Assembly: GCA_025054615.1 (NCBI GenBank)
Contig: JANWZO010000018.1
Coordinates: forward strand, 1-44,195
Direction of reading: 5' to 3'
Length of the DNA stretch: 44,195 nt
Origin: Kiritimatiellia bacterium
GTDB lineage: Bacteria > Verrucomicrobiota > Kiritimatiellia > CAIVKH01
Below are positions 13,805 through 26,572 of the stretch, piece by piece. The translations under genes were made by a program, and so were the position numbers. The notes beneath the pieces were generated by a model. The model had not been told where the DNA came from, ran no database searches, and was given only the letters and a program-made list of their open reading frames with translations. The first letter of the stretch is position 1, and each line of letters starts with the position of its first letter.

Positions 13805-15055
13805 CTAACGACCGTACAAGGCCAAAATGGCCATGGCGGTGCTGTAGACTCGACCGCCGGCCACAGACCAGCGGTCCAACGGGGGCCAGCTTCCGGCCTC
13901 TTGACCTTCCGCCACCTGAGCGGCCCGGATCCGCGAAGTTAGGTTGAGGAGTTCAGAGTCATTCGGTGATTCCGCGCGGAGGAGGGCGGTCTGGAAGAAG
14001 GCCCGATACAGGTCCATCGGCTTCGCCGAATCAAGGGCGTCGCGACGGACGTGGTCCAGCATGCGGGCGAGACGTTCATCAACATGGGGATCCCGCTCGA
14101 AGAAGCAAAGGGCTGCGGCTGCGGTCAGCGTTTCAGGCCCATTCGGATGATCCCCATCGCGGCGGTATCCCACACGGCCGTCAGGACCGATGGTGGATTC
14201 AAGCCACGCAAACCCTTGTTCGATAGATCTGCGAAAGTCGCCGAGATGGGCGGCTTCCGCTTCCATGAGAACCTGAAGAGCCCAAACGGTTACGCTGCTG
14301 TTCGGCGACGCTCCCGAACGTAAATAAGACCAGCCACCGTCGGCGTGCTGGTTACGCACAAGCAGATCCACGCCGCGGCGCAATGCTCGATCGACGTCGC
14401 TGCCAACTGCGAGTTCGCCTCGGGCCCTAAGCAGGGCAAGACAGGCAAGGGCGTGATTATAGATCGATCCGGTAATCTGAGGCCCGAACAACCCATCTGG
14501 CGACTGAGAGGAAGCGAGAAAAGCTAGACCTTTCAAGATTGCGCCCCGGATTTCGTCGGTCTGGTGCCCTGTCATCAGGGCCATTAGCGCCAGTGCGCTG
14601 GTTCCCACGGCATAGTTGGCCGACGCGCCGGTGCGACCCAATGACCAGCCCCCGTTCGGGTCCTGATGTCGCAGCAGCCAGGATCGGGCCCTGTCCAACT
14701 GAGCATCTAGTGGTACGGCCGTGTTGGACGTCGTCGGCGAACGGTCGGAATCACGCTGACTCTTGACCGGCGCGAAGGCGTCGGAAGCCGACGCGATCTC
14801 AACGGTTTGAGAGTACCGAATATCCCAAATCACCAGCAGTGCGGAAAGCACGGCCAGAGGAAGGCAAACGGCGATTGACCGCTGGAATATCCGTCGGGCG
14901 CGAATTCGGGCAAGAATTCGCGGCGCGAGATCGGGCGTGGGCGCGGCAGGGTGGCGGCGAAGCGACGCCAGAACATCGCCGAACTCGCACTCCAGTTCGG
15001 AGACTGTATCCGAAGCGTTTCGGGCTTCAGACTTCGATGAGGCGTCACGAGCCAT
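13805..15055 (-). CDS. Putative anti-sigma factor fused to a prenyltransferase/squalene-oxidase-repeat domain
   Basis: The 416-residue protein begins with about 55 polar residues that could form a cytoplasmic anti-sigma region (ELECEFGDVLASLRRHP, then LAPRILARIRARR). One membrane segment follows at about 57-78 (SIAVCLPLAVLSALLVIW). The large C-terminal part (about 115-416) has at least four alpha-alpha repeats of the terpene-cyclase/prenyltransferase type: RHQDPNGGWS, SSQSPDGLFG, RNQHADGGWS and ESTIGPDGRVG, each followed by an Ala/Leu-rich helix. There is no DXDD cyclase motif visible, so enzyme activity is doubtful; a periplasmic sensing toroid fits better. It overlaps the ECF sigma gene by 11 bp and has a GGGGGAGAAG Shine-Dalgarno inside it. 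The anti-sigma role is inferred from gene order and topology. Confidence 0.72.
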   Translation of the reverse strand: MARDASSKSEARNASDTVSELECEFGDVLASLRRHPAAPTPDLAPRILARIRARRIFQRSIAVCLPLAVLSALLVIWDIRYSQTVEIASASDAFAPVKSQRDSDRSPTTSNTAVPLDAQLDRARSWLLRHQDPNGGWSLGRTGASANYAVGTSALALMALMTGHQTDEIRGAILKGLAFLASSQSPDGLFGPQITGSIYNHALACLALLRARGELAVGSDVDRALRRGVDLLVRNQHADGGWSYLRSGASPNSSVTVWALQVLMEAEAAHLGDFRRSIEQGFAWLESTIGPDGRVGYRRDGDHPNGPETLTAAAALCFFERDPHVDERLARMLDHVRRDALDSAKPMDLYRAFFQTALLRAESPNDSELLNLTSRIRAAQVAEGQEAGSWPPLDRWSVAGGRVYSTAMAILALYGR

Positions 15056-15623
15056 GGAGCTTCTCCCCCCGATGTGTCGCGCGCAGTGCCGCTCGGATTC
15101 GGCTTAGAGCGATGGATACGCGCGACTTAACGGTCCCCACTGGCACACCCAGGATTTCAGCCGCCTCGTGATACGCCATGCCCTGATAAACGACGAGCAC
15201 GACGGCTTCCCGATGGTCGGGTGAAAGCAGTCCAAGAAGCGAATCGGCATCCATGGAAACCGGAGGCCGATTCGCCGAGGCACAGTCGATTTCATTGAAT
15301 TCAGGTGCGGCGCGCATCAATAGGCGCGCGAAGCGAGACTGCCGGCGAACGTGATCCAACCAGACGTGGTGGCCGAGCGTGTGAAGATAGGTAGTGAAAC
15401 GGGCGAGAGGCTTTGCCCGTTTGCGATGGCGGTACAGTCTCAAAAACGTCTCTTGCACGAGATCCTCCGCATGATGTTTAGCGCCGGAGCGGAGGAAAAA
15501 GTTCAGCAACTTTTGCTGGTGACGCTCCACGAGCCGAGCGAAGGCGTCGTCATTTCCGCGAGCCGATTCAAAGAGTAGCGCCCAATCCTCCTGGGAATCC
15601 GGGCTCGCGCGCTCATCAGACAT
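15045..15623 (-). CDS. ECF-family RNA polymerase sigma factor
   Basis: The 192-residue size and layout are those of a group 4 sigma factor. Region 2 lies at about residues 18-92 (DDAFARLVERHQQKLLNFF, EDLVQETFLRLYRH, LGHHVWLDHVRRQ). Region 4 lies at about 130-182 (LSPDHREAVVLVVYQGMAYHEA, then AEILGVPVGTVKSRVSIALSRIR), a helix-turn-helix that reads the -35 element. It directs RNA polymerase to specific promoters. It overlaps the putative anti-sigma gene downstream and is divergent from the TonB-like gene, 94 bp away. This resembles FecI/FecR-type iron or nutrient signalling, but the receptor here has no N-terminal signalling domain, so direct transmembrane coupling is not supported. Confidence 0.92.
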   Translation of the reverse strand: MSDERASPDSQEDWALLFESARGNDDAFARLVERHQQKLLNFFLRSGAKHHAEDLVQETFLRLYRHRKRAKPLARFTTYLHTLGHHVWLDHVRRQSRFARLLMRAAPEFNEIDCASANRPPVSMDADSLLGLLSPDHREAVVLVVYQGMAYHEAAEILGVPVGTVKSRVSIALSRIRAALRATHRGEKLHGS

Positions 15624-15717: not shown

Positions 15718-16350
15718 ATGACTCGCCTGGACCAGTCCATTCTGCCAACTGTGCGATCGGTGGCCATCTCCACCGGCCTTCACTCATTGATCCTGGTCCT
15801 TGTATTGCATGCGCCAAGGACCGCGCCGACGGCGGATTACCCACAACGAGAAGTCGAAGTTTTCTTGCGAGACGTTGAAGCCTTGGAACTGCAGGAGATC
15901 GCAGAATTTCAGATGCAGCCCTGGGAACCTCCTGACATGGCGATGGAACCTTTTGAAGAGTTCATCATGGAGCCGGCTCCATCCGAGCTGGCGTACGATC
16001 TGAATCCTCTGCAGTCGGATCCCTTTGCGGATTCGCAGCCGCTAGTTGATTCCTTGCCCTCGGAAACGGAGAGGCATATCGATTCCGTCGCGCAGACGTT
16101 TTGGATGAAGATTCGGGCGAGACTGGAGCGCGAGCTGCTGAGGTTGCGCCCAATCGATGGATCCACGAGCATCACGGTCCGAATCCTAGCGCTGGAGGAC
16201 AAACTTATCCCCTTGGCGCCGCCTACCGAATCTGAAGATCCGCGTGTCCGTTGGGTGCGCGAGGCTGTCGAACGGGTCGTACTTGCGGCCGCTTCACCGC
16301 CCGTTCAGGCGGCGGGCACCAAAATTCGAATCGATGTGAGAGTTGAATAA
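15718..16350 (+). CDS. TonB-like energy transducer
   Basis: The 210-residue protein has an N-terminal membrane anchor (TVRSVAISTGLHSLILVLVLHAP, about 11-33), an unusually acidic Glu/Pro/Met-rich linker (about 42-115), and a C-terminal domain (about 120-210) resembling a TonB C-terminal domain: a helix (FWMKIRARLERELLRLRP), beta strand (SITVRILALEDKLIPL), helix and final strand (TKIRIDVRVE). The usual Pro-Lys spacer is absent; the linker is acidic. It lies 30 bp upstream of the TonB-dependent receptor and is probably cotranscribed with it. It would couple the proton motive force to the receptor. ExbB/ExbD are not in the window. The call depends on topology and context. Confidence 0.65.
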   Translation: MTRLDQSILPTVRSVAISTGLHSLILVLVLHAPRTAPTADYPQREVEVFLRDVEALELQEIAEFQMQPWEPPDMAMEPFEEFIMEPAPSELAYDLNPLQSDPFADSQPLVDSLPSETERHIDSVAQTFWMKIRARLERELLRLRPIDGSTSITVRILALEDKLIPLAPPTESEDPRVRWVREAVERVVLAAASPPVQAAGTKIRIDVRVE

Positions 16351-16380: not shown

Positions 16381-18471
16381 ATGAAACAACTGATCCAACG
16401 TAGAATGATTCTGGCTGCGATCGTTTCCCTGCCGCTCGGCGCGAGCGCCGAAACTGTGGAGCTTCCGGAGATTGTTGTGACGCCACTCCGAACTCCGGTT
16501 CCGGCCGCGGAGGCTCCCGCTAGCGTATACACAATAACCTCCGACGATCTGTCCGACCTTGCGCCTCGTACAACGCCGGAGGCGCTCCGTCGCGTCCCAT
16601 CGGTCATGGTCCAAAAGACGGCATACGGCCAAGGTTCGCCGTATCTGAGGGGCTTCACCGGCTTCCGGACCCTCGGATTAATCGACGGCATTCGCCTCAA
16701 CAACAGCGTATTTCGTGAAGGGCCCAACCAATATTGGGCGACCATCGACCCTTTTTCCGTGGATCGCTATGAGGTCGTTCTGGGCCCCGCCTCCGTGCTG
16801 TACGGAAGTGATGCGATCGGCGGAGCCATGAACGCAATTCCCCCGGATGTTCCGGATTGGGATGGGAGGGCCGATTGGGAACACACCGTAAAATATCGCG
16901 GCGCCACAGCAGATCAGTCCCACCAGGCCCGTTTCCAGACAGGCGCGCGCCTTACAGAGTCGTTCGGTCTTCGTGCTGGATACTCATGGAAAACGTTTGA
17001 TGATCTCCGCGGGGGGCGAGAAGTCGGCAAACAGCCGGAAACCGGGTACAACGAAATGGCATGGGATGCTCGAGCCAGCTACTTCTGGCAAAACGGCGCC
17101 TCGCTGACGCTCGGCCATCAACATCTGACTCAGGACGATGCCTGGCGAACCCATCGCACCATCTATGGAATCGAGTGGGAGGGCACGGTCAAAGGCGATG
17201 ATCTCCGGCATGTCTTTGATCAGGATCGCACGCTGACCTATTTGCGCCTGGCTCACTCGGAAAGAGACGGCGCGGTTGACGCCTACACATTGACCCTTTC
17301 GCGCCACAAACAGGGTGAAGACCTCGATCGTCTGAGAGGGAATGGGCGGAGAGAATTTCAGGGCTTCGACGTGGAAACCTGGGGTGCAGCCCTGACGCTT
17401 GAGAGCGAAAGCGCCATCGGCCGTTGGGTGTATGGAGCCGATGTTTATCGCGATCTTGTGAATTCCTATTCGATCCGCATCGATCCGGGCGCCGCGCCGG
17501 TGAGGGGGAAACAGGGCCCTGTTGCGGATAACGCGACCTATGACCTGCTGGGAGCTTTCGTCCAAAACACGCTGAACGGTACCGCAGGAATCGAAATCAC
17601 TCCCGGGGTGCGCTACACCCATGCGCATCTCGATGCGGAGAAGGTAGACAAGCGGCCCGATGGAATTTCCGGCAACTGGGATGCGGTCGTCGGCTCCTTG
17701 CGGGCGCTGATCCCATTCAGTGAGGATCGCTCCCACAATGTTTATGCCGGCATCTCCCAGGGATTCCGCGCACCCAATCTCTCCGACCTGACGCGGCTCG
17801 ATTCCGCTCGAAGCAAGGAAATCGAAACACCCGTGGACGACTTGAAGCCGGAGCGCTTTATCACCGCTGACGCAGGGTGGAGGCGGGCGACTGACCGGTG
17901 GAAAGCAGGAATCGCTTATTTCCACACATGGATCGAAGACCTGATTGTGCGCACGCCGACCGGCGAGATCGTGGACGGCTTGATGGAGGTTACAAAGAAA
18001 AATTCGAGCGAGGGGTACGTCCACGGCATCGAACTGCTCGGCGAGACGCTCCTGGGCGAAGACTGGCGAATTCGCGGCATGGCGACATGGATGGAAGGGG
18101 AGGCGGATGGGTATCCGACATCAGAACCTGTGATTGTGCGCGAACCGCTGAGCCGCGTCATGCCTCTGACAGGGCGCCTCGCCCTTCGTTGGCAGCCGGT
18201 CGGTCAGTCATTCTGGGCGGAAGCGGAAGTTGAAGCGGCGGAGAAAGCCGATCGATTGTCATCGGGCGATAAACGCGACACGCAGCGCATTCCGCCGGAT
18301 GGGACGCCCGGCTACGTGGTCGGCCACTTGCGAGGCGGCTATTCGTTCGCAAGTGGATTGTCCGTGACGCTCGCGCTCGAAAACGTTTCGGACGAGGACT
18401 ACCGCATCCATGGATCAGGCTTGAACGAACCGGGGCGCCAACTAGTGCTCGCCGCGCAGTACACCTTCTAG
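16381..18471 (+). CDS. TonB-dependent outer-membrane receptor
   Basis: The 696-residue protein has a signal peptide (MILAAIVSLPLGASA) and a TonB-box-like EIVVTPLR at about residues 31-38. A plug domain (about 45-155) contains LRRVPSVMVQKT, LRGFTGFRTLGLIDGIRLN, VDRYEVVLGPASVLYGSDAIGG. A long beta-barrel region follows, ending in Phe (LVLAAQYTF), as needed for outer-membrane insertion. It imports a ligand that the sequence does not identify (siderophore, B12, metal or carbohydrate). There is no N-terminal secretin/STN signalling domain. It follows the TonB-like gene by 30 bp and lies opposite the ECF sigma/anti-sigma pair, which may control it. Confidence 0.93.
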   Translation: MKQLIQRRMILAAIVSLPLGASAETVELPEIVVTPLRTPVPAAEAPASVYTITSDDLSDLAPRTTPEALRRVPSVMVQKTAYGQGSPYLRGFTGFRTLGLIDGIRLNNSVFREGPNQYWATIDPFSVDRYEVVLGPASVLYGSDAIGGAMNAIPPDVPDWDGRADWEHTVKYRGATADQSHQARFQTGARLTESFGLRAGYSWKTFDDLRGGREVGKQPETGYNEMAWDARASYFWQNGASLTLGHQHLTQDDAWRTHRTIYGIEWEGTVKGDDLRHVFDQDRTLTYLRLAHSERDGAVDAYTLTLSRHKQGEDLDRLRGNGRREFQGFDVETWGAALTLESESAIGRWVYGADVYRDLVNSYSIRIDPGAAPVRGKQGPVADNATYDLLGAFVQNTLNGTAGIEITPGVRYTHAHLDAEKVDKRPDGISGNWDAVVGSLRALIPFSEDRSHNVYAGISQGFRAPNLSDLTRLDSARSKEIETPVDDLKPERFITADAGWRRATDRWKAGIAYFHTWIEDLIVRTPTGEIVDGLMEVTKKNSSEGYVHGIELLGETLLGEDWRIRGMATWMEGEADGYPTSEPVIVREPLSRVMPLTGRLALRWQPVGQSFWAEAEVEAAEKADRLSSGDKRDTQRIPPDGTPGYVVGHLRGGYSFASGLSVTLALENVSDEDYRIHGSGLNEPGRQLVLAAQYTF

Positions 18472-18644: not shown

Positions 18645-19430
18645 ATGTGGCTTCGTACATTCGGCGAGTCCATCGTAGGCCGCTTCAACCGGTGGGCCCA
18701 CGTGGTCTCTATTGCGGTCGCCGCGATCGCCGCGGCTTTAAGGCCCCGATATTGGCCACAGCCGGTCCGCGATGTGCTGGCGAGGCAGATTCTTTTTACA
18801 GGGTTTGAAGCGATACGCTTTGTGTCGATGATCGCGATTTTGGTCGGGTTGGCCGTGGTTCTGCAAGCGCAGCTTGCGCTGTCAAAACTCGGGCAGTCGG
18901 GCCTGCTCGGTCCCATCTTGGTGATGGTCCTTATCCGGGAGGCGGGACCGCTCCTCACCAATTTTGTGGTCATCGGGCGAAGTGGAACCGCTATGACGAC
19001 CGAGTTGGCGAATATGAAGGTGAATGGCGAGGTGCAACTGCTGGACGCACAGGGGCTGGACCCGTTCATCTACCTTGTCATGCCGCGCGTGCTGGGGGCG
19101 GCCATTTCCATTTTTTGTCTGACTATCATTTTCATCGCGGTCTCGTTCGCCAGCGGGTTTCTCGCGGGACTTCTACTCGGCGCGAACACCGGCTATCCCA
19201 ACCTGTTCATTCGGAGTGTATTCAGCGCCATCACTCCTGCGGATGTGGTGAACCTGATTCTAAAATCAGTGGTTCCTGGCCTCTTGACCGGCGCAATCTG
19301 CTGCTCGGAGGGATTAAGCGTTGGGCAGGCATTTACGGAGGTTCCGCAAGCGGCCACGCGCGCGGTGGTCCGTTCCACAGCGACCTTGTTCCTCACGTCG
19401 GCGGTCGTATCGCTCGCGACCTACCTATGA
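18645..19430 (+). CDS. mlaE: MlaE/YrbE-family ABC transporter permease
   Basis: It is the inner-membrane permease of an MCE lipid-transport system. The conserved core is visible: VLIREAGPLLTNFVVIGRSGTAMTTELANMKVNGE, then LDAQGLDPFIYLVMPRVLGA, and several hydrophobic helices (MIAILVGLAVVLQ, SIFCLTIIFIAVSFASGFLAGLLLG, FLTSAVVSLATYL). From ATG 18645 it is 261 residues; GTG 18636 and TTG 18609 are in-frame alternatives, and I see no decisive ribosome-binding site. Its stop overlaps the next gene's start (ATGA). It begins an apparently continuous cluster through 25555. The 137-bp gap upstream holds no recognised feature. The symbol reflects family membership, not proven identity with E. coli MlaE. 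Confidence 0.9.
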   Translation: MWLRTFGESIVGRFNRWAHVVSIAVAAIAAALRPRYWPQPVRDVLARQILFTGFEAIRFVSMIAILVGLAVVLQAQLALSKLGQSGLLGPILVMVLIREAGPLLTNFVVIGRSGTAMTTELANMKVNGEVQLLDAQGLDPFIYLVMPRVLGAAISIFCLTIIFIAVSFASGFLAGLLLGANTGYPNLFIRSVFSAITPADVVNLILKSVVPGLLTGAICCSEGLSVGQAFTEVPQAATRAVVRSTATLFLTSAVVSLATYL

Positions 19431-20116
19431 GCGCGATTCTCGAGATCCAAGAGGTGACCTTTCCGAAAGAGCCACCTTACGATTGCGGGCTCAGCGGGGT
19501 GTCGATCGAAATTCGGGAGGGAGAGATCGCTCTCGTGGAACTGCCCGTGGGCGTCGCGCTCACACCGCTCGCGGACGCGGCAGAAGGGCTGATCGAGCCG
19601 GCAGAAGGGCGGGTCCTCTTCGAGGAGAAGGACTGGCGCGAGCGATCTCCGGACCTGGCCGCCACGGCGCGCGGTCGCATTGGGCGTGTGTTCGAGAGGG
19701 CGGGCTGGCTCAGCAACCTCGACCTTGACGAGAACATCACACTGGCAGGCCGCTACCATTCTCGCGAGACGTTCAGCGCCCTGATGGAGAAAGCCGAGGC
19801 GCTGGCCGCCGAATTGAAGGTCGGTATGATCCCGCAGGGAAGGCCGGCGCGGATGAACCGCGAAACTCTCCTCAAAGCGCAGTGGATACGTGCCCTTTTG
19901 GGAAGTCCGAGGCTACTTCTGTTGGAGCGGCCCGTGCGAGATCTTCCCGCAGAGGAGGCGGCGCCCTTTGTGGACGCCGTGCGGCGGCGCTGCGAACAGC
20001 ACGGCCTTGCCGTGCTGTGGATCACGGATTCACATGAACGTCTGGATGCTTGCGCGTTGCGGGCTGACCGAAAATATGCGATTCAACAGGAGAAATTAGT
20101 CATAGCGCCCGTTTGA
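19427..20116 (+). CDS. Degenerate MlaF-like ABC ATPase lacking catalytic motifs
   Basis: The gene occupies the MlaF position between permease and MCE genes, with an ATGA overlap before it and a 1-bp overlap after it. The 229-residue product aligns along the whole ABC fold: beta-strand start ILEIQEVTF, SIEIREGEIALVE, GLIEPAEGRVLFEEKDW, VFERAGWLSNLDLDENITLAGRY, RALLGSPRLLLLERPV, LAVLWITDSHERL. The catalytic motifs are gone. The Walker A region reads LPVGVALTP (no GKS/T), the Q-loop Gln is Glu, the LSGGQ region reads MNRETLLKAQ, and Walker B reads LLLLERP instead of LLLLDEP. The frame is intact, so it is probably expressed. A pseudo-ATPase that supports the complex structurally is my inference. 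Confidence 0.8.
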   Translation: MSAILEIQEVTFPKEPPYDCGLSGVSIEIREGEIALVELPVGVALTPLADAAEGLIEPAEGRVLFEEKDWRERSPDLAATARGRIGRVFERAGWLSNLDLDENITLAGRYHSRETFSALMEKAEALAAELKVGMIPQGRPARMNRETLLKAQWIRALLGSPRLLLLERPVRDLPAEEAAPFVDAVRRRCEQHGLAVLWITDSHERLDACALRADRKYAIQQEKLVIAPV

Positions 20117-21003
20117 TGAGTAAGCCGTTCAAATTTCGATATGTAAACGAAATCGTTGGCGGGTTTGTCATCGCCATCGCGCTCGCGCTGGTGGTGGGCA
20201 TCATCCTTGCCGGCCGCGCCCAAGACTGGTTTGAGCCTATTTATGAAATTCGTTTGGAGTTCCCAGAGGAGGGTTCGTTGGGCCTTCAACAAGGGGCGGA
20301 TGTGCAAATTTTAGGCGCCTCCGCCGGCCGGGTCGGGAAAATCCGCGTGCAGGATGACGGATCAATGTACACGACGTTAGAGATCAAAAGCGAATTCATC
20401 CGGTTTATCCGCACCGACTCCAAAGCGATTGTGAAGAAGAAATTCGGCATCGCCGGCGATGCTTTTGTCGAAATCACGCAGGGACGCGGGGCTCCCTTGG
20501 GGGAAGAGGCGGTTCTTCAGGCGATTCGCGACACGGAGATCACGGAGCTTGCCCGTGAGATTCTCAAGGAAGTCCAGAATGCCGTGCTGCCTCTGCTGGA
20601 GGAATACAGACGCCTCGCCGCGGACCTGCGCGACGCGGAGAAGCCGCTGATGCAAGCGCTGGCCAACATTGAACGCATCACCCGCGGCCTGGCCGAGGGC
20701 GAGGGAACGGCCGGCCAGCTATTGCGCGATCCAAAAACCGCTCAGGAAATCGAGGCAATGCTCGCCGACATTCGATCCATCCTCGAAGACATCAAGGAAA
20801 CCACTGCGCGCCTGCCGCCAATGGCGGCGACCGTAAAACAGGAGGTTGACGCGCTCCCCGGCACGGTGGTTCAGGCGCAGGAGACTCTACGGGAGTCTGA
20901 AAGACTCATTGAGGGCATTCAGCGGCACTGGTTGATCCGCAAGTATGTGCCTCCAACGGTCGTTCCGGACATGATCCCTCCAGATCGGGCGGGAGGGCCC
21001 TGA
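20116..21003 (+). CDS. mlaD: MCE-domain (MlaD-like) lipid-transport protein
   Basis: The 295-residue protein has a short cytoplasmic N-terminus, one membrane helix (EIVGGFVIAIALALVVGIILAG, about 12-33) and an MCE domain at about 40-120 (YEIRLEFPEEGSLGLQQGADVQILGASAGRVGKIRV and onward to AFVEITQGRG). A long helical region (about 140-270) then contains heptad-like LLEEYRRLAADLRDAEKPL and IRSILEDIKETTARL. It is expected to form a periplasmic ring or tube that moves lipids between membranes with the MlaE permease. ATG 20116 overlaps the stop of the ATPase-like gene by one base (TGATG). A TTG one codon upstream is less likely. Its stop overlaps the next ATG. Confidence 0.9.
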   Translation: MSKPFKFRYVNEIVGGFVIAIALALVVGIILAGRAQDWFEPIYEIRLEFPEEGSLGLQQGADVQILGASAGRVGKIRVQDDGSMYTTLEIKSEFIRFIRTDSKAIVKKKFGIAGDAFVEITQGRGAPLGEEAVLQAIRDTEITELAREILKEVQNAVLPLLEEYRRLAADLRDAEKPLMQALANIERITRGLAEGEGTAGQLLRDPKTAQEIEAMLADIRSILEDIKETTARLPPMAATVKQEVDALPGTVVQAQETLRESERLIEGIQRHWLIRKYVPPTVVPDMIPPDRAGGP

Positions 21004-21929
21004 TGCGGTCCGGATTCATTTGCGCTCTGATGGCCTTGCTGGCTTTCGCTGCGGCGGGATGCGGCTCGCCACCGAAGCGACCTGCGCCTGCGGATCCCTT
21101 GTTGGTTCAATTGGCGACCTCGGGCGGGTCCGCCTATGCACTGAACAGCTTCGACCGCGCCGCCCGATTCTATCGGCTCGCTCTTCAGCGCGCGCGTGCG
21201 CTGGACGACGCCACCGAAATCGGAAAACAGGCGTATAATTTGGCCGCGGCGCTCTTTATGTCCGGCAAACCGGCGGAGGCGCTGCCTTATTTGGAGGAAG
21301 CGGAAACCGCCTTCGCCGCCATCCGCGAGGACACGGGCCCCATTCTGCTTCTAAAGGCCAGGGCGCTCCGCTCCGCCGGTGGGACGAACGAAGCTCTTTC
21401 GGTCCTACAGCGCGTCGTCGAGCTCGATACGCCTCGTGATGTCCAGGCGCAAGGTTGGCTCCTCTTCGGACATATCATGTTGGATGCGGGTCAGGGCGAC
21501 GAGGCGGAGAAGGCACTGCGGCGCGCACGTTCCGTCGCATCCGATGATCCTGTGCTTCGTGCGGGCATCGCTGGCCTGGAGGCGCGTCTAGCCGTCCTCG
21601 GAGGCAACCCCGGCTTGGCCGCTGAAAAATTCGATACGGAAGCGGCCGCTTTTCAAGAAGCCGGGCGCTACAGGGACATGGCGGATTCCTTACTGCGGGC
21701 GGGTTCTGCGTATGCGGAAGCAAAATTGTTCGAACGGGCTGGCGATCGATTTTATCGCGCGGCTCGGAGTTTCTATGGGCAGGGCGATACCGCCCGTGCC
21801 CTGGAGGCGATCGAGCGTGCGCTGGCCGCGGCCGATCGAGCGCCCGAGGCGGGATGGTCGAAAGCGTTGGCTGCGCTCTTCAATGAAATTCGCGCCAACC
21901 CGGCGGCCGAACCTTCATCGACTGAATAG
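21003..21929 (+). CDS. TPR-repeat lipoprotein
   Basis: The 308-residue protein begins with a lipoprotein signal (MALLAFAAAGC, lipobox Cys20). It continues as tandem helical hairpins of the tetratricopeptide type: SFDRAARFYRLALQRARAL, QAYNLAAALFMSGKPAEALPYLEEA, GGTNEALSVLQRVVEL, GWLLFGHIMLDAGQGDEAEKALRRA, GSAYAEAKLFERAGDRFYRAARSF, DTARALEAIERALAAA. It is likely anchored in a membrane facing the periplasm and acts as a scaffold. It overlaps mlaD by one base. In many organisms the MCE operon ends with a lipoprotein (MlaB/MlaC/PqiC positions), so this may be the outer-membrane partner; that is inference. Confidence 0.82.
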   Translation: MRSGFICALMALLAFAAAGCGSPPKRPAPADPLLVQLATSGGSAYALNSFDRAARFYRLALQRARALDDATEIGKQAYNLAAALFMSGKPAEALPYLEEAETAFAAIREDTGPILLLKARALRSAGGTNEALSVLQRVVELDTPRDVQAQGWLLFGHIMLDAGQGDEAEKALRRARSVASDDPVLRAGIAGLEARLAVLGGNPGLAAEKFDTEAAAFQEAGRYRDMADSLLRAGSAYAEAKLFERAGDRFYRAARSFYGQGDTARALEAIERALAAADRAPEAGWSKALAALFNEIRANPAAEPSSTE

Positions 21930-21988: not shown

Positions 21989-22456
21989 ATGAAAAAAACG
22001 ATCGTCATGGCTCTTTTATCTGCGCTTGGGGCCGCGACCGCCCTGGCCCAGGAGACCCTGTACATCGGCGTGCAATCCGCGCCGCTGCGCGCGAATCCGG
22101 CCCCCTTTGCTCCCATCGTCGGCAAGCTGTCATATGGAGAAGCCGTGATCGTGTTGGCGCGTCAGCCCGGATGGCTGCAGGTCCGTTCCGCCGGAGGCAT
22201 TTCGGGGTGGGCGAATCAGTCCCTATTCCAACGCGAACGCGTCACGCTTACCGCCGGAACGACCGACGCGCGAACCGGAGCCACAGCCCGCGAACAGGCG
22301 GCTGCTGCAAAGGGGTTCTCGCCACAGGTTGAGTCGCAGTATCGCAACCAGAATCCGGATCTCTCAGCCGCCTACGAAATCATTGATCGGATGGAGGCAT
22401 CGCGTTTGCCGGATTCCGAAGTGGAGGCCTTTCTGAAGAAGGGAGGTTTGCTGTGA
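21989..22456 (+). CDS. Exported SH3-domain protein
   Basis: ATG 21989 follows a good Shine-Dalgarno (AGGAGGA). The 155-residue product has a signal peptide (MKKTIVMALLSALGAATALAQ). A bacterial SH3 domain spans about residues 24-85 (LYIGVQSAPLRANPAPFAPIVGKLSYGEAVIVLARQPGWLQVRSAGGISGWANQSLF pattern). A helical tail closes the protein. Such domains often bind peptidoglycan or peptides in the periplasm. The stop overlaps the GTG of the M48 lipoprotein, so the two are likely coupled in translation; an assembly or quality-control role in the envelope is inferred from that pairing. Confidence 0.82.
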   Translation: MKKTIVMALLSALGAATALAQETLYIGVQSAPLRANPAPFAPIVGKLSYGEAVIVLARQPGWLQVRSAGGISGWANQSLFQRERVTLTAGTTDARTGATAREQAAAAKGFSPQVESQYRNQNPDLSAAYEIIDRMEASRLPDSEVEAFLKKGGLL

Positions 22457-23355
22457 ATCAAATCCGTTCGCTTCGGTTTATGATTCCGGCCCTCCTGATG
22501 CTCGGGCTCGTCCTTTCCTCAGGTTGCGCGACCGTCGCGGAAGTGGGAGTAGCCACCGGCGTCATCACGCCCGAACAGGGGGAAACACTGTCGAGGACGT
22601 TTCAGGATTTCACGCCGGAGAATGAGTACTATCTGGGACGGGCGGTTGGCGCCACAATCCTGCAGCGCTACCCAGCATATGAAAACGAGGCCGCCTCGCG
22701 TTATGTGCGGTTGGTTGGACAGGCTTGTGCGGCTGCCTCGGATATGCCCACGACCTTCCGCGGCTATTCGTTCCTCATCCTCGATTCTGATGAAATCAAT
22801 GCGTTTGCCGCGCCGGGAGGCTTCATTTTCGTCACGCGAGGCATGCTTCGTTTGTGCCGCAGTGAAGACGAGCTAGCGGCCGTGTTGGCGCATGAGGTCG
22901 CCCATGTCCAGTTGCGGCATGGCGTTAATGCCATCAGCGGCGCCCGAAAATTGGAAGCGTTGAGTTTGCTTGCCGAAGTCGGGATTCGACGATTCGGCAG
23001 CGACGAGGCGGTACAAACTCTGGATCAGCTCAACAAGCTTACCGAAATCTTCGGCGGGAGTGTCGCCGACGTGGTCAACACACTGGTTCTCAAGGGCTAT
23101 TCGCGCGAACAGGAATACGAGGCAGATCGCGTTGCCGCGACGATACTCGATCGGCTCGGATACGATCCCTCGGCGTTGACGCGAGTGCTGCAGAGGATGG
23201 ATCAGCAGGTGGTCCGCGGAGGCCCGGGCTTTGGCAGCACGCATCCTCCAGCCTCTGAGCGCGCGCAGGAGGTTTCAAAGCGGATCGTTCCGCGCCGACT
23301 GCCAGCGGAAGCCGCCCGTACGAAGCGCTTCGAAGAGGCCATGCGCGGGATCTAG
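22453..23355 (+). CDS. M48-family zinc metalloprotease lipoprotein (BepA/LoiP-like)
   Basis: The 300-residue protein starts at GTG 22453 with GGGAGG upstream and carries a lipobox (LVLSSGC, Cys25). The peptidase domain (about 60-270) has the zinc motif HEVAH (His147, Glu148, His151) and the third-ligand motif YEADRVA (EQEYEADRVAA), plus INAFAAPGGFIFVTRGML, typical of the M48B/C group. It ends with STHPPASERAQEV, as in periplasmic M48 proteins. These enzymes degrade or mature misassembled outer-membrane proteins. It is coupled to the SH3-domain gene upstream and 55 bp before the cyclase gene. Confidence 0.93.
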   Translation: MNQIRSLRFMIPALLMLGLVLSSGCATVAEVGVATGVITPEQGETLSRTFQDFTPENEYYLGRAVGATILQRYPAYENEAASRYVRLVGQACAAASDMPTTFRGYSFLILDSDEINAFAAPGGFIFVTRGMLRLCRSEDELAAVLAHEVAHVQLRHGVNAISGARKLEALSLLAEVGIRRFGSDEAVQTLDQLNKLTEIFGGSVADVVNTLVLKGYSREQEYEADRVAATILDRLGYDPSALTRVLQRMDQQVVRGGPGFGSTHPPASERAQEVSKRIVPRRLPAEAARTKRFEEAMRGI

Positions 23356-23410
23356 AGTCGCCGGGCCCGCCGCGCTTCGTTCCTTTTGTTCGCCAAGGCC
23401 CTCCCCAGTC

Positions 23411-25555
23411 GTGAATTTTCAGCCTGCCTCTAAGCAAGCTCGCATCTCGATTGGCGCTGCAATCGGTTTGCTCGCGGGCCTCGCATTCTCGATTGCCGGC
23501 AGGCAAGGTCTCCTTGATGACTGGGAACATTCATCGTGGGGAATTCGCGTCCGCGCATTGGCACGTCCCTCGCCGGCGAGCGAACAAATTAAGCTGATCC
23601 TCATCGATCAGGCCAGCCTCGACTGGGCTTCGTCCGAAAACCAGCTTTCGTGGCCGTGGATGCGCCAGGCGTACATTCCGATCCTAGAATTCTGCCGCCG
23701 CGCCGGCGCGCGCGTCGTGGTCCTCGATATGTTGTACACCGAACCTTCCATGTACGGCGTGGAAGACGATGAGCTGTTCGGTCAGACCCTTGCAACGGTG
23801 CCCGGTTCGATTGTCGCCGTCTTTTCGGGCGAGCAGGCCGTGCAAACGCGCGTTTGGCCGGAAGACACGCCTGAACCCCCGTGGAAAATCGCGGGTCTGG
23901 ACGCCTGGCTGACGCCCGATCGCCGATCGGCGCTGCAAGACCCGGGCGCGGCATTTCCTGTCGGCCCCGTCCGGACCAACGCTGCCGCTCTCGGGGCCGT
24001 CCGTCTTGATCCAGATTCGGACGGCGTGTTTCGTCGAATCGCTCCGTTTCGACTGTTCGATGGGCGGATAGTTCCGACACTGGGGTTAGCCGCCTATCTG
24101 ATTGGCCGTGCCGGCGCCGATGTTCAGCCGCTCGCAATCGAAGATCGGGCGCTTTATGCCGGAAAAACAAGGATGCCGATCGATCGGAAGGGACGGGTCA
24201 TCCTGCGATACCGAGGGCCAAGCGGAACCCACCGGGCATACTCCGCAGCGGCCGTGATCCAGTCCGAACTGCGCTTGCAAGCGGGGGAGTCGCCGACGAT
24301 TGATCCGGAGGTTTTTCGCGATTCCTACGTGTTCGTCGGCGCGAGCGCGCCAGGGCTCAAAGACCTCAAGCCGACGCCGGTGGGCGGTGACTATCCGGGA
24401 GTGGAAATTCACGCGACGCTTCTGGACAACCTGCTTGAGGCCGACCTGATGCGCGATGTGCCGGTTATCGCCGTGGTCTTCTTTTCGATGTTTCTCGCCT
24501 CGGCCGCCGGTGCCTCCATCGCTGCCGCGAGCGGCTGGCTGAAGAGCGCCGTGATTTTTGCGGCCTTTTTGCCGATTCCCTCCGTGTTGGGCGCGCTCGC
24601 GTATGCCGAGGGGTGGTGGCTGCCGGTCGCGGTTCCGACAGCCGCGGCGGCGACGGCCCTCGTCGGTGGCGTGATTCTCAACTACGCCACCGAGGGGCGC
24701 CAGAAACGGTTCATTAAATCTGCATTCAAGCAGTACCTTGGCGAAGCTGTGATCGACCAGATTATTGCTGACCCCTCGAAGCTGCGGCTCGGCGGGGAAC
24801 GCCGCGAATTGACGATGTTTTTCTCGGACCTGGAGAAATTTTCTAGCTTTTCCGAAAAACTCGAGCCGCCGCAGCTCATCGATCTCCTGAATGCCTACCT
24901 GACCGACATGGGACGGGTGCTCATGGAAGAGGGGGGATACATCGACAAATACATCGGCGACGCCATCGTCGCCTTCTGGAATGCGCCGCTGTCGCAGCCC
25001 GATCACGCTGCGCGCGCCCTGCGCGCCGCGATCCGTTGCCAGGCCCTGCTTCGCGAAAAACAGGCCCTCTTTTCCGCGATGGCAGCGGGAATGCCCGTTC
25101 GCATGCGCATCGGGCTGAACACTGGCGAAGTGGTGGTCGGCAACATGGGATCCCAAGACCGATTCAACTACACGATGCTGGGCGACGCTGCGAACCTCGC
25201 GTCGCGCCTTGAAGGGGCAAACAAGGCCTTCGGCACGTTCATCTTGGCGGCCGAATCCACATGGACCGCCGCAAATAACTCGGTGTTTGGCCGTGAGGTG
25301 GGCCTCATTCGAGTGGTCGGCCGGGCGAGGCCGGTGCGCGTGTTTGAGCCCATGGCGCTTGACCGCAACGGATTGCCGCCATGGCTTCCCGATTATGAGG
25401 CGGGACTGCGGGCGGTCGTCGAGAAACGCTGGCAGGACGCGCTGACCCTCATGGAGGCCATCCCTCAAGACCCCGTCGCGCGCGCCTACTCAATGAAGCT
25501 GCGCGAGCTGCGCGGAGCCGACTGGGACGGCATATGGAATCTGACCGAGAAATGA
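23411..25555 (+). CDS. CHASE2-domain adenylate/guanylate cyclase
   Basis: From GTG 23411 the protein has 714 residues; the frame is open further upstream but there overlaps the M48 gene. An N-terminal helix (IGAAIGLLAGLAFSIAG) is followed by a periplasmic CHASE2 sensor (about 35-345; IKLILIDQASLDWA, GARVVVLDMLYTEP, VPTLGLAAYLIGR, DSYVFVGASAPGLKDL). Three membrane helices occupy about 355-445. A class III cyclase domain follows (about 465-645) with metal-binding Asp473 (FFSDLEKFSSFSE) and Asp517 (KYIGDAIVAFW), then LNTGEVVVGNMGS and FNYTMLGDAANLASRLE. It probably makes cAMP in response to a periplasmic signal. The MBL-fold gene downstream could hydrolyse the product. Whether the substrate is ATP or GTP is not certain. 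Confidence 0.93.
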   Translation: MNFQPASKQARISIGAAIGLLAGLAFSIAGRQGLLDDWEHSSWGIRVRALARPSPASEQIKLILIDQASLDWASSENQLSWPWMRQAYIPILEFCRRAGARVVVLDMLYTEPSMYGVEDDELFGQTLATVPGSIVAVFSGEQAVQTRVWPEDTPEPPWKIAGLDAWLTPDRRSALQDPGAAFPVGPVRTNAAALGAVRLDPDSDGVFRRIAPFRLFDGRIVPTLGLAAYLIGRAGADVQPLAIEDRALYAGKTRMPIDRKGRVILRYRGPSGTHRAYSAAAVIQSELRLQAGESPTIDPEVFRDSYVFVGASAPGLKDLKPTPVGGDYPGVEIHATLLDNLLEADLMRDVPVIAVVFFSMFLASAAGASIAAASGWLKSAVIFAAFLPIPSVLGALAYAEGWWLPVAVPTAAAATALVGGVILNYATEGRQKRFIKSAFKQYLGEAVIDQIIADPSKLRLGGERRELTMFFSDLEKFSSFSEKLEPPQLIDLLNAYLTDMGRVLMEEGGYIDKYIGDAIVAFWNAPLSQPDHAARALRAAIRCQALLREKQALFSAMAAGMPVRMRIGLNTGEVVVGNMGSQDRFNYTMLGDAANLASRLEGANKAFGTFILAAESTWTAANNSVFGREVGLIRVVGRARPVRVFEPMALDRNGLPPWLPDYEAGLRAVVEKRWQDALTLMEAIPQDPVARAYSMKLRELRGADWDGIWNLTEK

Positions 25556-25708: not shown

Positions 25709-26572
25709 ATGCGCCTGATTGTTGGCGGAGTGCGTGGGTCATATCCCGTTGCTCAGCCCGCGTTCATGAAATATGGCGGGGAGACGACGTCAATCCTGAT
25801 CGAGGGCGTTCGCGGAGATCACATTTTTATCGATGCGGGCACCGGCATTCGGGTTCTGGGGCGGCGTTTGGCTTCAGCCGGCGGGCCGCGGCGCGTGTTG
25901 CTGTTGATGACGCATTATCATCTCGACCACATCATGGGTCTGCCGTCGCTCGGACTTTTGTATGATTCCACGTGGACAATCGAAATCGCGGCGCCCGCGC
26001 TCGACGCTTATCAGGTCGAGGAGACGATGTCGCGGATCATGGACAAGCCCTTTTGGCCACTCCAAATTTCGGATGTGCGCTCGCGCGTGCGATTCCACAC
26101 GCTCGAAGGCCGCGCCTCGAGCGAGCCGCTCCAGTGGGGAACGTTTGAGATCCGATGGTGCCCGGTCTCGCATCCCGGCGGATGCACGGCGTACCGAATT
26201 GACGAGCCGCCATGCGGCGCTTCGGTGGTTATTGCAACGGATATCGAATGGGCTGCTGCGACGGAGGAAGAGCAGTCGCTCCTGGTCGGATTGTGCAGCA
26301 AGCCGGAGCCCGTGGAGCTCCTGATGATGGATGCCCAATATGAACCGGAGGAGATCGACCGGTACCGGGGTTGGGGCCATTCGTCATGGCTGGATGCGCT
26401 GGCCGTTGCCCGGATGTCCGGGGCCCGTGCCGTGAAGCTCATCCATCATGATCCCCGGAAAGATGACTCAGCGCTCGACGAGCTGGCCGGTCGCGTGGCG
26501 TCGGCCGATTCGTGTGCCGACCTTGCTCGGGCGGGCGAGGAGATCGAGCTGGGCCGTTCGTCCGCGGCCTGA
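25709..26572 (+). CDS. Metallo-beta-lactamase-fold hydrolase, possible cyclic-nucleotide phosphodiesterase
   Basis: The 287-residue protein has the MBL metal motif at residues 69-74 (THYHLDHIMGLPS: His69, His71, Asp73, His74). Further likely ligands lie in VSHPGGCTAYRI, VIATDIEW and LIHHDPRKDD. The N-terminus (GVRGSYPVAQPAFMKYGGETTSILIE) is typical of PhnP-like/COG1235 proteins. The HxHLDH form resembles that of class II cNMP phosphodiesterases. Because it follows a cyclase gene, cyclic-nucleotide turnover is a reasonable hypothesis, but general MBL hydrolases share these motifs. It may have its own promoter, since a two-unit palindrome array precedes it. Confidence 0.85.
   Translation: MRLIVGGVRGSYPVAQPAFMKYGGETTSILIEGVRGDHIFIDAGTGIRVLGRRLASAGGPRRVLLLMTHYHLDHIMGLPSLGLLYDSTWTIEIAAPALDAYQVEETMSRIMDKPFWPLQISDVRSRVRFHTLEGRASSEPLQWGTFEIRWCPVSHPGGCTAYRIDEPPCGASVVIATDIEWAAATEEEQSLLVGLCSKPEPVELLMMDAQYEPEEIDRYRGWGHSSWLDALAVARMSGARAVKLIHHDPRKDDSALDELAGRVASADSCADLARAGEEIELGRSSAA

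Follow-up and report, generated by a model that had tools for sequence, protein, structure and literature searches.

An operon for an MCE-type system in a Kiritimatiellia bacterium contains, between the genes for an MlaE-type permease and an MCE protein, an open reading frame (19427-20116, + strand) whose product is almost certainly a conserved pseudo-ATPase. The window, i.e. the whole stretch of DNA that was analysed, comprises 44,195 nt (GCA_025054615.1, contig JANWZO010000018.1, positions 1 to 44,195, forward strand). In our preferred reading, to which we assign a probability of about 0.55, the pseudo-ATPase replaces MlaF in a second, separate MCE system consisting of MlaE, pseudo-MlaF, MCE protein and a TPR lipoprotein, which serves as a passive conduit. 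Our findings suggest a complex that moves lipids between two membranes, or tethers them, without an ATP motor of its own. The operon, the genes following it and the vestigial motifs are arranged as follows:

18645-19430, +, MlaE-type permease of the pseudo-ATPase clade, 261 aa (PF02405, E 1e-51)
19427-20116, +, pseudo-ATPase, degenerate MlaF-like ABC nucleotide-binding subunit, 229 aa, all catalytic positions altered (AF2 model, Foldseek best match E. coli MlaF 6xgz)
19541-19564, +, vestigial Walker A, LPVGVALT replacing GPSGMGKS (aligned to E. coli MlaF and to the genome's own intact MlaF)
19682-19744, +, most conserved stretch, Q-loop position Glu90 and the following groove, GRVFERAGWLSNLDLDENITL (mean entropy 1.13 bits)
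19853-19867, +, vestigial signature motif, MNRET replacing LSGGM (alignment, entropy)
19913-19933, +, vestigial Walker B, LLLLERP, with Asp changed to Glu and the catalytic Glu to Arg (alignment, n = 66)
20027-20029, +, Asp201 in place of the lost H-loop histidine (alignment)
20116-21003, +, MCE (MlaD-like) protein with TM helix, one MCE domain, long helical tail and C-terminal QxHWLxR (PF02470, alignment, model)
21003-21929, +, TPR lipoprotein, lipobox AAGC (Pfam TPR; beside the MCE gene in nearly all loci)
21989-22456, +, SH3-domain periplasmic protein (PF08239; about half of loci)
22453-23355, +, M48 metallopeptidase (PF01435, 6e-36; about half of loci)
23231-25555, +, CHASE2-adenylate/guanylate cyclase (PF05226, PF00211; about half of loci); the listed TTG start is probably too early
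25709-26572, +, metallo-beta-lactamase-fold protein (PF12706; about half of those class loci that extend this far)

The pseudo-ATPase family

The reading frame is open throughout and its ATG at 19427 overlaps the MlaE stop codon (19428-19430), while its own stop codon (20114-20116) overlaps the ATG of the MCE gene at 20116. The preliminary description, made from the letters of the window, had pointed out this intact frame with its tight start and stop overlaps, both of which are seen in the translation, and had described Walker A, Q-loop, LSGGQ and Walker B as altered. All four read as it stated, with ELPVGVALTPL at Walker A, FE for FQ, MNRETLLKAQ for LSGGQxxR and LLLLERP for LLLLDEP, and the H-loop histidine is lost in addition. 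Alignment against E. coli MlaF and the intact MlaF that the genome also encodes puts LLERP in place of LYDEP and MNRET in place of LSGGM. The protein reaches 21 bits with Pfam ABC_tran, under the cut-off of 25, and 25.6 bits with the NCBIfam MlaF model, for which the cut-off is 441; the lowest E-value for any member of the family among the NCBIfam matches listed is 5e-21, obtained with PRK11831 (MlaF). As had been proposed from its pattern, the ABC nucleotide-binding domain fold is predicted to be kept: the single-chain AlphaFold2 model based on 53 sequences has a pLDDT of 95.7 and a pTM of 0.92, and E. coli MlaF (6xgz) is its best PDB match (Foldseek, TM 0.83, E 1e-16).

Sixty-six distinct homologues, the basis of all alignment counts for the pseudo-ATPase, are found in Kiritimatiellia, a few Planctomycetes and Verrucomicrobiales, and the losses are common to every one of them. 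GxxGxGK[ST] and the signature are both absent from all of the 54 named loci from GTDB contigs to which locus and synteny counts refer, and even the looser Walker A pattern GxxxxGK[ST] occurs in none of the 66 homologues. Single residues survive sporadically: lysine at the Walker A Lys position in 2/66, the Q-loop glutamine in 1/66, SGG in the signature in 1/66, the Walker B aspartate in 3/66 and the catalytic glutamate in 7/66 (together as DEP in 0/66), and the H-loop histidine in at most one, which reads Thr-His-Asp. Since the losses recur in every homologue, they do not stem from a sequencing error, and an intact Walker motif in close orthologues, named earlier as a finding that would speak against a pseudo-ATPase, is not encountered among the 66.

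A canonical MlaE is likewise present in all 33 class genomes that contain a permease of the pseudo-ATPase type. In 20 relatives the ATPase adjoining this second MlaE was inspected with the same script and keeps GxxGxGK[ST], Q and DEP without exception (20/20). The preliminary description had advised looking for a second, intact MlaF elsewhere, and the window's own genome indeed encodes one in a separate MlaE-MlaF-MCE operon. As the canonical ATPases are intact in all 20 relatives and in the genome itself, the losses are no artefact of lineage or gene calling.

The pseudo-ATPase gene is under purifying selection. Between pairs sharing 65-88% of their amino acids, NG86 dN/dS ratios range from 0.14 to 0.37, about the same as or a little higher than those of the adjoining genes in the same comparison (MlaE 0.05-0.41, MCE 0.05-0.28). 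Orthologues in related genomes thus share the losses under purifying selection, as had been suggested for checking, and the ratios are not those of a decaying pseudogene. The pattern of conservation is inverted relative to MlaF. In canonical MlaF (n = 21), entropy is lowest in the P-loop, signature, Walker B, D-loop and H-loop (0.14-0.54 bits), whereas the P-loop (3.09 bits) and the D-loop (2.83 bits) are the most variable regions measured in the pseudo-ATPase family. Here, conservation peaks at residues 86-106, just past the Q-loop (1.13 bits as compared to a family mean of 2.05), where W94, N97, L98, E102 and N103 are invariant or nearly so. By analogy with ABC transporters of other kinds, these residues would be expected in the groove that takes the coupling helix of the permease. 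W70, W94, N97, R139, W153 and W198 make up new invariants specific to the family.

Among 58 genomes (that of the window and relatives from its class), 33 contain an orthologue of the permease, and the pseudo-ATPase occurs alongside in 33/33, albeit on a separate contig in G003 and G049. A search with a pseudo-ATPase profile, tallied from the match table, gave hits in 50 of the 131 genomes of the class and in none of the 257 other genomes sampled from the phylum; the E-values left a clear gap from 5e-40 to 1e-29. The scan of GTDB contigs adds the 54 named loci, mainly labelled Kiritimatiellae, Lentisphaerae or Verrucomicrobia and in a minority of cases Rhodopirellula, Rubripirellula, Planctomycetaceae (one record) or Auribacterota (two records); MAG labels can be erroneous. 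The pseudo-ATPase is rare in the phylum to which the Rubripirellula genome belongs (4/294 genomes, query counted). In all 54 loci MlaE is situated directly 5' and MCE directly 3' of the pseudo-ATPase gene wherever the contig is long enough. No member of the permease clade with an intact ATPase, which would represent an intermediate, was seen in the 58 class relatives, in 388 genomes of the phylum or in the 54 named loci.

Permease, MCE protein and neighbouring genes

The PF02405 match of the window's permease lies above the cut-off, and its TIGR00056 score of 116 bits lies below the cut-off of 212. All 33 sampled permeases from pseudo-ATPase operons reside in one clade (support 100/100), apart from the canonical MlaE proteins of the same genomes and separated from them by a stem of length 2.17, in a tree that places E. 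coli and a few rows on long branches. The topology points at a single origin of the clade. The positions of R97, E98, Q73, D198 and K205 in E. coli MlaE are retained in 22-23 of 23 operon permeases, and both the lipid-contact Arg97, shown to contact the lipid phosphate in E. coli (PMC7790496), and the coupling-helix Glu119 (E. coli numbering) are retained in 23/23; conservation is lost at the position of D250 (n = 23). Genome G035 was considered as a case of MlaE (L066) without pseudo-ATPase and rejected, because the genes for pseudo-ATPase and MCE protein (L158) were found some 35 kb away on the same contig, C3, so that the operon is split. In L066 the permease gene is followed by one for a 369-aa protein that appears SPFH/virion-core-like by eye.

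The MCE protein matches PF02470 above the cut-off (E 5e-10), and its model is reliable over the TM helix and the MCE domain (pLDDT about 90) and of low confidence in the tail. QxHWLxR at the end of the tail is invariant in the family alignment; in the window, HWLxR corresponds to residues 271-275 (20926-20940), is preceded by Q269 and lies near the C-terminus. Possibly, this motif is a contact point of the tail with the outer membrane or with the TPR lipoprotein, the gene for which overlaps that for the MCE protein by one base. In G032 the block of TPR, SH3, M48, CHASE2-cyclase and metallo-beta-lactamase-fold genes sits upstream instead. Neither in the window nor in the loci of relatives was a second ATPase gene found in the operon.

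Directly 5' of the operon, a possible TonB-like open reading frame (15718-16350, no Pfam match) is followed by a gene for a TonB-dependent receptor (16381-18471). Both were considered as an energy source and rejected as parts of the system, because searches with the window's proteins showed no counterpart of either next to the operon in relatives. Still further upstream, an ECF sigma factor gene overlaps one for a protein that begins with a membrane segment and has a C-terminal repeat domain resembling squalene-hopene cyclase (13805-15055 and 15045-15623, - strand), which would make up an unusual sigma/anti-sigma-like pairing.

Mode of action

How could such a complex operate? We give even odds to a passive-conduit mechanism modelled on the E. 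coli system. By clamping the coupling helices of dimeric MlaE, a homodimer of the pseudo-ATPase would hold the complex in a nucleotide-free, outward-open state. Lipid, assumed as the substrate on the basis of the MlaE and MCE families, would flow passively down its own gradient through MlaE and MCE, in a probably outward direction, and ATP-driven transport would be the task of the cell's intact MlaFED. In the apo state, E. coli MlaE opens outward, and a hydrophobic path runs without interruption from its pocket through MlaD (PMC7790496), and transfer of lipid from MlaD to MlaC has been reported to be spontaneous and to be prevented by ATP hydrolysis (PMC10212509). We infer complex assembly, passive flow and flow direction; for the latter, the proposed outward course leans on biochemical work in E. 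coli, which is in dispute. Somewhat short of even odds, and thus put forward tentatively, is the wider notion that the MlaE/MCE clade in Planctomycetes, Verrucomicrobia and Kiritimatiellia works without ATP altogether, its permease being locked open by a pseudo-ATPase dimer as a passive outward conduit in parallel to an ATP-driven inward MlaFED.

It is conceivable, albeit rather unlikely, that the complex does not transport at all and that it is a tether or scaffold anchoring a trans-envelope MCE bridge together with the TPR lipoprotein and the M48 peptidase, with no lipid passing the permease. Catalysis is lost, yet conservation extends to the MCE protein's long helical tail, to the adjoining TPR lipoprotein and in many cases to an M48 peptidase, as would suit an anchor. 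A pure anchor, however, would have no use for a buried cluster of charges and an arginine for the lipid phosphate (R97, E98, Q73, D198, K205), which 22-23 of 23 permeases retain, an argument weakened by the observation that E. coli MlaE with R97, E98 or K205 replaced by alanine is without SDS/EDTA phenotype (PMC7790496).

Energy might also be borrowed, with the intact MlaF from the other operon joining this permease either alone or as a heterodimer with the pseudo-ATPase. The intact MlaF in the same genome and the co-occurrence of the canonical MlaE system (33/33) would make this feasible. In an ABC dimer, each ATP site is formed by Walker A and B of one subunit and the signature of the other. 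The pseudo-ATPase lacks Walker A and B as well as the signature, so that both sites of a heterodimer would be incomplete even with an intact partner and hydrolysis would not be restored. Moreover, the family is kept as a distinct gene adjoining its own permease, and the two permease clades are far apart (stem length 2.17). We consider borrowing improbable. Even less credence is due to the idea of a re-tasked sensor, in which the permease is gated by the vestigial site upon binding of a different protein or of some ligand that is not ATP. The vestigial positions are partly non-random, with Glu at the Walker B Asp position in 55/66, Arg at the catalytic Glu position in 31/66 and Glu or Asp at the Q position in 41/66, and a CHASE2-cyclase gene adjoins in about half of the loci; the P-loop, however, is the most variable region of the protein and therefore no conserved phosphate-binding loop is left. 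Sequencing error, pseudogene formation or misassembly, for which nothing speaks beyond the lost motifs themselves, is ruled out by 66 homologues from independent genomes with the same losses, by dN/dS values of 0.14-0.37, by the intact frame and by the tight overlaps.

Relation to known systems

For the system that we prefer to read as a passive conduit with pseudo-MlaF, the open-access literature searched yielded no published description as an MlaE system with a conserved pseudo-ATPase. The family apparently constitutes a non-enzymatic ABC subunit family, and the Pfam cut-off misses its member in the window. The role of ATP in Mla transport and the direction of lipid flow are still argued. 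Here, evolution has provided a natural MlaE-MCE complex with the ATP site removed entirely but with the MCE channel, the permease and the residues by which it contacts lipid kept. With it, the question could be put directly of whether lipid moves through an MlaE-MCE conduit in the absence of ATP, and which way.

MlaFEDB from E. coli and other Gram-negatives resembles the system in combining MlaE permease, ABC-fold subunit and MCE protein in one operon, in that MlaF is the best structural match and in the MlaE residues for lipid contact and coupling helix, which are retained. In contrast to MlaFEDB, every ATP-site motif is lost, the C-terminal extension of MlaF is absent, neither MlaB (STAS) nor MlaC adjoins, the MCE protein is longer with a helical tail, a TPR lipoprotein is added and the permease falls into a separate clade. 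The three-gene core without MlaA and MlaC and the long MlaD-type MCE protein are shared with the minimal MlaEFD of Veillonella and most diderms (PMC10665443). The mlaF of the minimal system has been described as much like that of model diderms, whereas a pseudo-ATPase is present here; annotation of MlaF was noted as uncertain in that large Mla survey, which identified it by synteny and an MlaF profile (PMC10665443). An intact operon of the minimal type is present separately in the host studied here. PqiABC and LetAB are periplasm-spanning MCE systems without ATPase, Pqi with an outer-membrane lipoprotein (PMC12436622, PMC10897342), and thus provide a precedent for MCE systems that function in transport with no ABC motor. 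Their membrane subunit is PqiA or LetA and no ABC-fold subunit is kept, whereas the permease described here is a PF02405 MlaE. In CFTR and other ABC transporters with a single degenerate ATP site, the other site works and ATP is still used. Altered catalytic motifs in a nucleotide-binding domain are common to these transporters and the pseudo-ATPase, but in the latter one gene serves a presumed homodimer, such that both sites would be lost.
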